From a bacterium (lineage in GTDB: Bacteria > CAYTYR01 > UBA6262): 45,297 nucleotides of DNA. Below, piece by piece: positions 1-33,858 of the stretch. Each line of letters starts with the position of its first letter. Position 1 is the stretch's first letter. Made by a program: the position numbers and the translations under genes. Below the pieces are notes generated by a model. The model searched no databases, was not told the origin of the DNA, and worked only from the letters and a program-made list of their open reading frames with translations. The stretch spans positions 1 to 45,297 of the forward strand of contig JAQTPL010000012.1 of the NCBI GenBank assembly GCA_028712895.1, given 5' to 3'.

Positions 1-391
1 AATCAGAACCGCCCTTGCCGCCGCCCATAGGCAACGTGGTCAGGCTGTTTTTAAATACTTGTTCAAACGCCAAAAACTTTAAGATACTGAAGGTGACGCT
101 GGGATGTAAACGCAAACCGCCCTTGTACGGCCCGATCGCGCTGTTCATTTCAATACGGTAACCGCGGTTGATCTGGATCTCGCCTTTATCGTCTAGCCAG
201 GGAACGCGGAATATGATGGTCCTTTCCGGTTCGACCATTCTTTCGAGGATCTTATGTTTTTGGTATTTGGGATTTTTTTCGATGAAGGGCATAACGGATT
301 CTGCTACTTCTTGCACTGCCTGTTGGAATTCCGGTTCATTGGGGTTCTTGGTTGTTACTAACTTCATAAATTCGTCAACTTTTTTAGACAT
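1..391 (-). CDS. gdhA: Glutamate dehydrogenase, N-terminal part (cut by window edge)
   Basis: The reading frame starts at an ATG whose complement is 389-391, preceded by the ribosome site AAGGAG, and runs off the left edge after 130 codons of an expected roughly 450. The translation carries the Glu dehydrogenase N-domain signature: '[18 protein letters not shown]' followed by 'HPSV', '[14 protein letters not shown]' and 'LPMGGGKGG', which include the substrate-binding lysines of the family. The enzyme interconverts glutamate and 2-oxoglutarate plus ammonia in the cytoplasm; the family pattern resembles the NADP-type hexameric enzymes. It is preceded by a sigma70-type promoter, a two-hairpin leader and an intrinsic terminator (separate entries), so transcription into the gene is probably controlled by antitermination. 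Coenzyme specificity cannot be judged because the Rossmann domain is outside the window. Confidence 0.93.
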
Positions 392-450: not shown

Positions 451-487
451 AAAAATAAAAAAAAGACCATAAGACAACTGGTCTTTT
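451..487 (-). terminator. Intrinsic terminator inside the gdhA leader
   Basis: On the minus strand AAAAGACCA (487-479) pairs with TGGTCTTTT (469-461), a 9-bp stem with a 9-nt loop, followed by a run of T broken by one A (460-451). It lies between the leader hairpins and the gdhA start, 60 nt upstream of the ATG, so it would stop transcription before gdhA unless prevented. A competing hairpin GACAA/TTGTC (490-486 with 477-473) would use the same bases and exclude it. It also could end transcripts of the upstream GAF-ANTAR gene. Confidence 0.75.
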
Positions 488-492
488 GTCCC

Positions 493-536
493 GGACTTCC
501 TTGTCCTGTACAAAACATTTGGCACGCCATTGTGCC
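493..536 (-). promoter_or_regulatory. Two-hairpin ANTAR-type RNA target in the gdhA leader
   Basis: On the minus strand the first hairpin is GGCAC-AATGGC-GTGCC (536-521) and the second GGAC-AAGGAA-GTCC (506-493), separated by 14 nt. Both loops are six nucleotides long with A at position 1 and G at position 4, which is the published recognition pattern for ANTAR-domain RNA-binding antiterminators (paired hexaloop motif, often in front of nitrogen-metabolism genes). The pair lies downstream of a good promoter and upstream of an intrinsic terminator and gdhA. The neighbouring upstream gene encodes a GAF-ANTAR protein. Function is inferred from this match; no structure calculation was possible. 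Confidence 0.72.
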
Positions 537-553
537 GCTGATTTATTATAGAA

Positions 554-582
554 TTTATATCATAAAAACTAATACCTGTCAA
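554..582 (-). promoter_or_regulatory. Sigma70-type promoter of gdhA
   Basis: Minus strand TTGACA (582-577), spacer of exactly 17, TATAAA (559-554). The predicted start is near 547, about 11 nt before the first leader hairpin, giving a leader of roughly 155 nt. Confidence 0.75.
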
Positions 583-602: not shown

Positions 603-1313
603 TTATCTTTTAATCGATTTGGACAGGATGACGGCTTCAGCTATTTCCCGCATACTTTTGCGGGCATTCATACTTTGTTTTTGCATCCGCCGGTAAGCCT
701 CTTCCCCGCTAATTTGCGCGTCTCTGGATAGCATATCCTTGGCCCGTTCCACCAGCTTGCGGGTTTCCAGCTCTTCCTGTATGGACCGGGACCTTTCCAG
801 CAGGCCATGTTGATCGATCACCATGGCTGCCTCGGCAGCGACAGTAGCGACAACAGCTATCTCAGTTTCGGTAAAGTTATGAATAGCGTGAGTATAGCAG
901 TTCAGCACTCCGATAATTTTGCCCCGGACTGTCAAGGGTACACTGAGCAGGGAACATAAACCTTCTTTGATGGCAATGTCCGTATTCCTATACCGGGGAT
1001 CTCTTTTGACATCCAGTACGCTGACCGGCTTTTTTTCTTCCACTACCCGACCGGAGATACCTTCGCCTATCTTTAGGTTCGGTTTTTGATTATATTCAGC
1101 ACTGATGGATTGGGTTGCCCTAACGACCAGCTCTTGTTTTTTTTCATCCACCAGCATCAGGGAACATATTTTCGAGTCCATGACGTCAGCCATGACCATG
1201 ACGATCAGGCGTAAAACATCTTCCAACAGTAAATTACTGGATACTGCCTGGCTGATCCTGGAAAGCGCGGCTATTTGTTTCTTAAATGTTCCTATTTCTT
1301 TGCTGGGAGGCAT
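603..1313 (-). CDS. GAF-ANTAR RNA-binding antiterminator candidate
   Basis: 236 residues. A GAF sensor domain fills about residues 25-165 ('KICSLMLVDE', 'GISGRVVEEKKPVSVLD', 'LLSVPLTVRGKIIGVLNCY') and a C-terminal ANTAR domain residues 178-232 ('LETRKLVERAKDML', 'EEAYRRMQKQSMNARKSM', 'REIAEAVI'). ANTAR domains are three-helix RNA-binding modules that stabilise paired hexaloop hairpins and block terminator formation. There is no receiver domain, so the signal is presumably a small molecule bound by GAF; which one is unknown. The gene is immediately upstream of the gdhA leader, which has such hairpins. Its own 5' region also has hairpins that cover its ribosome site. It is a close paralogue in layout of the GAF-GAF-ANTAR protein at 32588-33823. 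Confidence 0.88.
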   Translation of the reverse strand: MPPSKEIGTFKKQIAALSRISQAVSSNLLLEDVLRLIVMVMADVMDSKICSLMLVDEKKQELVVRATQSISAEYNQKPNLKIGEGISGRVVEEKKPVSVLDVKRDPRYRNTDIAIKEGLCSLLSVPLTVRGKIIGVLNCYTHAIHNFTETEIAVVATVAAEAAMVIDQHGLLERSRSIQEELETRKLVERAKDMLSRDAQISGEEAYRRMQKQSMNARKSMREIAEAVILSKSIKR

Positions 1314-1371
1314 AAAAAATCCACCTTAAGTATTTGGTGGACAACGTAGTCCGGATAGCATCTTTGCTATC
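1314..1371 (-). promoter_or_regulatory. Structured leader of the GAF-ANTAR gene (possible autoregulation)
   Basis: Minus strand: GATAGC-AAAGAT-GCTATC (1371-1354; hexaloop with A1 and G4), then GGAC-TACGTT-GTCC (1352-1339; hexaloop with G4 but U1), then TCCACC-N10-GGTGGA (1341-1320) followed by TTTTTT and the ATG. The last stem contains the ribosome site GGTGG and ends in six T, so it could act as terminator or as ribosome-site lock. It shares three bases (1339-1341) with the second hairpin, so the two exclude each other, as in known ANTAR leaders. Weak points: the second loop lacks A1, and the best upstream promoter would start inside the first hairpin. Confidence 0.5.
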
Positions 1372-32587: not shown

Positions 32588-33823
32588 TTACTTATTCATC
32601 TCCGCGGTCAACAGGATCGCTTCTGCTATCTGTTTCATGCTCTTGCGGGTATTCATACTCTGCTGCTGGATTATTTTAAAAGCCTCAGCCTCATTCATGG
32701 TATATTTTTGCATTAAAACACCCTTGGCTTTTTCCACCACTTTCCGGGTTTCCAATGCTTCTTCCATTTCCATGGTCTTATCAAACAATTTAGTATTTTC
32801 TATGGCGATAGCTGCCTGGTTAGCCACTGATTGCAGGATCTTCACTTCTTCTTCACTGAACGAATGTTCATGGGAAGTATAACTATTGATCACTCCGACT
32901 ACTTTATCCTTGATCATCATCGGTACTGAAAGCATACTGACAATGCCCTCTTTCCGGGCCACATCCGGATATTTATAGGCTGGTTCCTGGGTGACATTCA
33001 AAACGGTAACCGGTTTTTTCTCTTTCACTGCCTGGCCGCTGACGCTTTCCCCTACCTTTACGTTTGGTTTTTTGACATATTCCGGACTTAGGGATTGAGT
33101 GGCTTTGATCTCGAGTTCCTGCTTCTTGTCATCCAGTAGCATAATGGAACATATTTTTGAGTTCATCATTTCCGCGGTCATGGTGACCACTAATTGCAGG
33201 ATCTCGTTTAAATACCGTCCCGAGGCAATAGTGGTAGAAATTTTTGACATGGTATCCAGGCGACGTGATTTTTTACGCGATTCTTCATAGAGCCGAGTTT
33301 TTTCAATGGCTGAACCAACCTGCGTCCCAATGACCGCCACTAGGCTCTTTTCCCGGTCTGAATACCGGTGAGCGCTGCGATGCCGTATATTAACCACGCC
33401 AATGACTTCATTCTTGGCGATGATCGGCACCGAAAGGATCGCCTGGAACTTATCTTCAGGTAACCCTTGGAAGAATTTATAGCGCGGGTCTTTCATGGCT
33501 TCTTTATTAATGGCCACGATCTTCTTCTGCTTAGCCGCTGTACCAGCGATCCCTTCGCCAATGTTGAGCCGTACCAGGCCCAGAGTCTTGGGATGCAGGG
33601 GTTTCGCGGCGCGCAGCACCAAATGTTCTTTGGCCTCATCAAAAAGGAACAGATGGCAGGCATCGCTTTTGGTTATTTCCGAAGCAACTTCCAGGATCTT
33701 ACCCAGCAATTCATCCAGATTGGCAATAGTAGAAATGATATCACTGATCCGGTAAAGGACAGTCACTTCTTCCTTTTTCTCTTTTAATTGTTTTTGCAGT
33801 TCTTTAGTATTAGTTTTAGGCAT
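32588..33823 (-). CDS. GAF-GAF-ANTAR RNA-binding regulator
   Basis: 411 residues. A short N-terminal coil, two GAF domains (about 20-170 and 195-345; 'LLSVP'-like 'AILSVPIIAKNEVIGVVNIRH' in part and 'MLSVPMMIKDKVVGVINSY'), and a C-terminal ANTAR domain ('RKVVEKAKGVLMQKY', 'EAFKIIQQQSMNTRKSMKQI'). It is the second candidate reader of the gdhA leader hairpins. The promoter TTTACT-N17-TATAAT ends six bases before the ATG, so the mRNA may be leaderless. Its signal is unknown. It ends upstream of mnmG with a repeat-filled spacer. Confidence 0.9.
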   Translation of the reverse strand: MPKTNTKELQKQLKEKKEEVTVLYRISDIISTIANLDELLGKILEVASEITKSDACHLFLFDEAKEHLVLRAAKPLHPKTLGLVRLNIGEGIAGTAAKQKKIVAINKEAMKDPRYKFFQGLPEDKFQAILSVPIIAKNEVIGVVNIRHRSAHRYSDREKSLVAVIGTQVGSAIEKTRLYEESRKKSRRLDTMSKISTTIASGRYLNEILQLVVTMTAEMMNSKICSIMLLDDKKQELEIKATQSLSPEYVKKPNVKVGESVSGQAVKEKKPVTVLNVTQEPAYKYPDVARKEGIVSMLSVPMMIKDKVVGVINSYTSHEHSFSEEEVKILQSVANQAAIAIENTKLFDKTMEMEEALETRKVVEKAKGVLMQKYTMNEAEAFKIIQQQSMNTRKSMKQIAEAILLTAEMNK

Positions 33824-33829
33824 GCAGGT

Positions 33830-33858
33830 ATTATATCACAATTATCACCCATAGTAAA
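33830..33858 (-). promoter_or_regulatory. Leaderless-type promoter of the GAF-GAF-ANTAR gene
   Basis: Minus strand TTTACT (33858-33853), spacer 17, TATAAT (33835-33830), then six bases and the ATG. The predicted start is the A of the ATG at 33823. Confidence 0.65.

Follow-up and report, generated by a model that had tools for sequence, protein, structure and literature searches.

The gdhA locus and its leader

The window (the whole stretch of DNA analysed, 45,297 nucleotides of contig JAQTPL010000012.1) begins with the 5′ part of gdhA, the gene for glutamate dehydrogenase, which runs off the contig end; overlapping sequence ends contig C46 of the same genome. A sequence reading places the gdhA leader on the minus strand, between gdhA and a GAF-ANTAR gene, here called ANTAR1. 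The main features, with their state in the related genome G001 where relevant, are as follows:

1–391, minus strand: 5′ part of gdhA, with the ATG at 391 and a match to Pfam PF02812 (ELFV_dehydrog_N, 5.4e-28)
457–487, minus strand: intrinsic terminator AAAAGACCA-(9 nt)-UGGUCUUUU followed by T8, found by folding
493–506, minus strand: P2 hairpin GGAC-AAGGAA-GTCC, hexaloop with A1 and G4, C:G closing pair
521–536, minus strand: P1 hairpin GGCAC-AATGGC-GTGCC, hexaloop with A1 and G4, C:G closing pair
554–559, minus strand: −10 box TATAAA of the leader promoter, read from the sequence (TACAAA in G001)
577–582, minus strand: −35 box TTGACA of the leader promoter, read from the sequence (kept in G001)
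603–1313, minus strand: ANTAR1, a GAF-ANTAR gene and candidate regulator (ANTAR domain, 5.8e-16)

The elements that the first-pass annotation had read here, a promoter with a 17-nt spacer (between TTGACA and TATAAA), two A1/G4 hexaloop hairpins and a terminator in front of gdhA, are all present on the minus strand, and the neighbouring gene does encode a GAF-ANTAR protein as it had stated. The stem of P1 has 5 bp and that of P2 has 4 bp, both hairpins carrying a six-base loop (AATGGC and AAGGAA, respectively) with A1, G4 and a closing C:G pair. The terminator arms occupy 487–479 and 469–461 and the T8 tract 464–457; the short P2 stem ends 5–6 nt before the 5′ arm, with no overlap as drawn. No alternative A1/G4 hexaloop forms within the terminator 5′ arm, as judged by eye on the sequence.

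The published ANTAR target consists of paired hairpins with six-base loops, A1 and G4 in each loop, and a terminator overlapping P2 (PMC3369931); EutV mutagenesis showed A1 and G4 to be required (PMC3369931), and SELEX with NasR selected A1/G4 hexaloops with a C:G closing pair (PMC7496416). The P2 loop AAGGAA also fits the AANGRR of the eut 13-mer, and the host genome encodes two ANTAR proteins, one of them adjoining gdhA. By nearly every feature that can be read from sequence, the gdhA element thus appears to be a genuine ANTAR-type leader; the exclusion between P2 and the terminator runs only via a predicted lower stem, and is partial.

The leader folds with a z-score of −2.89, and none of 200 shuffled sequences folded equally well. 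A scan of the window for hexaloop pairs (stems of 4 bp or more, linker of at most 20 nt, terminator downstream) found two A1/G4 hexaloop hairpins followed by a terminator in exactly one place in the 45 kb, and the same combination occurred anywhere in 3 of 120 dinucleotide-shuffled windows. The Rfam search gave no match in the window and nothing credible in 380–620.

Conservation of the leader

The comparison set comprised five genomes of the phylum (G000–G004), among which a close gdhA outside the window's own genome was found only in G001 (MAG UBA6262). The two leaders share an unchanged block:

478–548, minus strand: 71 nt identical in the window and G001, running from approximately the predicted +1 to the terminator 5′ arm

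The surroundings have diverged; the third codon positions of gdhA are 73% identical, no identical coding run exceeds 23 nt, and the promoter spacer, the terminator loop and the downstream leader all differ, with TTGACA and the 17-nt spacing kept despite the diverged flanks. Such invariance of 71 nt amid diverged surroundings indicates that the gdhA leader RNA is under selection. Both A1/G4 hexaloops, on which the first-pass annotation had made its reading depend, are retained in this homologous leader, in what is a single comparison. It had also proposed RNA folding and a covariance search among relatives; the leader folds better than shuffled sequences and is kept, but since the element is identical in the sole comparable relative, this is conservation without covariation. 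At 28 loci from other phyla with a gdhA homologue (L005–L032), the leaders contain no A1/G4 hairpin pair.

ANTAR genes and candidate leaders elsewhere

Two further features of the window concern the regulators:

1314–1371, minus strand: candidate ANTAR leader of ANTAR1, recognised by sequence, pattern search and comparison with G001
32588–33823, minus strand: ANTAR2, a GAF-GAF-ANTAR gene, the alternative regulator; the genome has no ANTAR gene besides this one and ANTAR1

ANTAR1 and ANTAR2 have the ANTAR core in common. ANTAR1 is favoured as the regulator because it adjoins gdhA and because an ANTAR1 homologue is the sole ANTAR protein of G002, in which the nadE leader described below is present. 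What stands next to gdhA in G001 is a truncated ANTAR gene, reduced to its C-terminal part and adjoining a transposase-like ORF (L034 1997–3434, G001:C3), and a full-length ANTAR gene is located on another contig, an arrangement that points to duplication or rearrangement; the regulator must therefore be able to act in trans there, and adjacency of the ANTAR gene to gdhA would not seem to be needed. No leader precedes ANTAR2, where a TATAAT stands directly before the ATG. This box ends 6 nt before the ATG (33823–33835, minus strand), which suggests a nearly leaderless mRNA.

The candidate leader of ANTAR1 comprises the hairpins GATAGC-AAAGAT-GCTATC (1371–1354) and GGAC-TACGTT-GTCC (1352–1339), terminator-like arms at 1341–1336 and 1325–1320, and T6 at 1319–1314. 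Its stems are kept in G001, where the P1 loop AGTGCC shares only A1 and G4 with the AAAGAT of the window; the P2 loop begins with U, against the A1 rule. In the window, P1 begins 2 nt downstream of the −10 box, so part of it may escape transcription from that promoter. The 3′ arm GGTGG could double as a Shine-Dalgarno sequence, in which case control of ANTAR1 could be translational.

A search of the five genomes with the pattern GGACNNNGNNGTCC yielded 39 listed matches. All but one of those followed by a T-run, and with their surroundings examined, belonged to gdhA, to the ANTAR1 leader or to a leader that recurs in four genomes. The last of these precedes the gene for a glutamine-dependent NAD synthetase (nadE) with CN_hydrolase and NAD_synthase domains; the leader lies at G000:C41:2819–2919, minus strand (L083), and in L082, L069 and L067. 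Two-hexaloop leaders were found in front of nadE in each of the four genomes that encode ANTAR proteins, and in front of ANTAR1 in two genomes; G000–G003 have both ANTAR proteins and leaders, and G004 has neither.

Both nadE hairpins, AAGAC-AAAGAT-GTCTT and CCGGC-AAAGTT-GCTGG, have A1/G4 loops closed by C:G, and the P1 loop varies across the genomes only at positions 3, 5 and 6. A third hairpin, GGAC-GTRGRT-GTCC, has an invariant stem and overlaps the terminator, which shows one compensatory change across the genomes; in the leaders of G000 and G002, P2 and the terminator are separated by two additional hairpins. In the same locus (L083 2299–2344, minus strand), a sub-threshold match to the Rfam ssnA RNA was noted (27.3 bits, gathering threshold 37.3, E 7.5e-4).

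Further targets were sought in the five genomes with GACAANGNNGTC and with a covariance model, R1. This model was trained on the gdhA, ANTAR1 and nadE leaders and is therefore not independent evidence for them; it revealed no other intergenic member in the five genomes, every weaker match examined lying within an open frame. A looser pattern, AANGRR...T6, was dropped, as it gave 1091 matches against 1419 for the reversed control.

A predicted switch in the P1–P2 linker

Folding of growing transcripts, and of the leaders from both the window and G001, drew attention to three short strands:

510–515, minus strand: switch strand UUUUGU in the P1–P2 linker, which pairs with AAUAAA or ACAAAA in folding
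542–547, minus strand: AAUAAA, possible partner of 515–510 (lower stem of P1, terminator-permitting state), from folding
484–489, minus strand: ACAAAA, downstream half of the lower stem of P2; the AAAA forms the base of the terminator 5′ arm

Pairing of UUUUGU with ACAAAA extends P2 by six pairs across a 3×3 internal loop and takes the A-tract of the terminator, whereas pairing with AAUAAA, close to the 5′ end, lengthens P1 and keeps the terminator intact (−26.0). The extended P2 with a 5-bp terminator core gives −24.8 (about −25), and P1, P2 and the full terminator without either extension give −23.7; the mutually exclusive folds are thus predicted to be nearly isoenergetic. Both partner strands lie within the invariant block, the P2 lower stem is kept in both genomes, and a 6-bp linker pairing arises by chance in 6% of shuffled linkers.

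The linker between the short stems is 14 nt long and shrinks to approximately 5 nt if the predicted lower stem of P2 forms. In the E. faecalis eut leaders, the linker is 5–12 nt (PMC3369931), and the length found here without the lower stem, 14 nt, is the one that abolished or strongly reduced induction in a eutP construct (PMC3369931); a survey of actinobacterial ANTAR RNAs accepted linkers of 2–25 nt (PMC8164766). The UUUUGU/ACAAAA pairing would hence make P2 overlap the terminator and bring the linker within the E. faecalis eut range. The first-pass annotation had found no overlap between the second hairpin and the terminator stem, which holds for the hairpin as drawn but not for the extended P2 predicted by folding. 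The 5-bp terminator core survives extension of P2 (−5.8 kcal/mol), so the exclusion is only partial. It is plausible from the folding models that coupling of P2 to the terminator via a lower stem represents a new way of linking the two.

The following sequence of events can be suggested. By default, a polymerase starting from the promoter at 582–554 would synthesise P1, P2 and the terminator, and transcription would end at T8; with the protein absent, AAUAAA close to the 5′ end may capture UUUUGU and so release the A-tract. A signal would activate a GAF-ANTAR protein, most probably the product of the adjacent ANTAR1 gene, and a dimer of it would bind both A1/G4 hexaloops. The protein-bound RNA would then take the extended P2 form with the UUUUGU/ACAAAA lower stem, which would remove the A-tract from the terminator 5′ arm, block completion of the hairpin and allow gdhA to be transcribed.

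Another possibility is that an ANTAR dimer bound to P1 and the short P2 sterically covers the 5 nt up to the terminator stem, with no competing pairing involved. The narrow gap of 5–6 nt between this hairpin and the terminator 5′ arm agrees with such a block, as does the nadE leader, in which the A1/G4 pair stands further from the terminator, with the two extra hairpins of G000 and G002 in between, so that in this lineage the pair does not always overlap the terminator. The published mechanism, however, is an overlap of P2 and terminator (PMC3369931, PMC7496416), an overlapping lower stem is both available and invariant at gdhA, and the third nadE hairpin (GGAC-NNNGNN-GTCC) does overlap its terminator; purely steric control therefore seems unlikely.

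It could also be supposed that the element is no ANTAR target at all, being the ordinary terminator of the ANTAR gene accompanied by chance hairpins, or the leader of a protein-free RNA switch. The terminator would indeed close the transcript of ANTAR1 as well, a gene with no other terminator noted ahead of gdhA, and Rfam contains no matching family. This explanation is nevertheless very improbable in view of the invariant 71 nt starting from the predicted +1, the A1/G4 and C:G closure in both loops, the recurrence of the A1/G4 rule amid otherwise free variation in the P1 loops of ANTAR1 and nadE, and the presence of leaders that tracks that of ANTAR genes across the five genomes.

The GACAA/TTGTC hairpin, which the first-pass annotation had offered as an intermediate structure of the switch, is the minimum-energy fold of the window RNA when its 3′ end lies at approximately 472–469, but its TTGTC strand reads TTTTT in G001, in contrast to the invariant sequence upstream of it, and when this hairpin is missing the lower stem of P2 prevails in transcripts of that length; the hairpin is not conserved, its role as an antiterminator or intermediate can hardly be credited, and it was rejected. 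The UUUUGU/ACAAAA lower stem of P2 appears, in the folding models, to be the better switch candidate.

The motif fit, the invariance in G001 and the similar leaders at two more genes bear out the first-pass reading of the region as an ANTAR antitermination leader, as far as sequence comparison goes. It is very probable that the gdhA leader is an ANTAR-controlled transcription-attenuation leader with a linker-strand switch; from this evidence we infer binding of an ANTAR protein, which of the two proteins acts, the signal and antitermination itself. With rather less than even confidence, it can further be proposed that GAF-ANTAR proteins of this lineage govern a small regulon comprising gdhA, nadE and the gene of the ANTAR protein. 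The antiterminator would then be of a variant type: the linker strand would switch partners between P1 and P2, and binding would sequester the A-tract rather than rely on an overlap with the G-C stem, nadE employing three stacked hexaloop hairpins.

Comparison with known ANTAR systems

No report of ANTAR control of gdhA or nadE was found in the literature searched, and the main text of PMC3369931 mentions neither glutamate dehydrogenase nor, among the lineages named, the present one. The leaders described here would extend ANTAR antitermination to a deep, uncultured and little-studied bacterial lineage and add gdhA, and probably nadE, to its targets; the linker flip, if true, would explain how an ANTAR hairpin can exert control without contact to the terminator stem.

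The EutV-controlled eut leaders of Enterococcus faecalis (Ramesh et al. 2012, PMC3369931) resemble the gdhA leader in having two small A1/G4 hexaloop hairpins before an intrinsic terminator, C:G closing pairs, a P2 loop that fits AANGRR and, if the lower stem forms, a linker of approximately 5 nt. They differ in that the overlap at gdhA is achieved by a separate P2 lower stem made with the linker and not by the hairpin itself, and in that a one-component GAF-ANTAR protein, rather than a phosphorylated response regulator, is the likely candidate to act on the RNA, with gdhA as the target. The NasR-nasF system of Klebsiella oxytoca (PMC7496416) is similar in its one-component sensor-ANTAR protein, its two C:G-closed A1/G4 hexaloops and its target in nitrogen metabolism; NasR senses nitrate with a NIT domain, whereas a GAF domain is the predicted sensor here. 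Predicted ANTAR leaders of Desulfotomaculum, Pelobacter and others likewise precede central nitrogen genes (glutamate synthase, glutamine synthetase, PII, nitrogenase; PMC3369931). The actinobacterial ANTAR RNAs (PMC8164766) share the dual-hexaloop motif, but a terminator follows only a few of them, and many overlap a ribosome-binding site or a coding region; the gdhA leader belongs to the terminator type.
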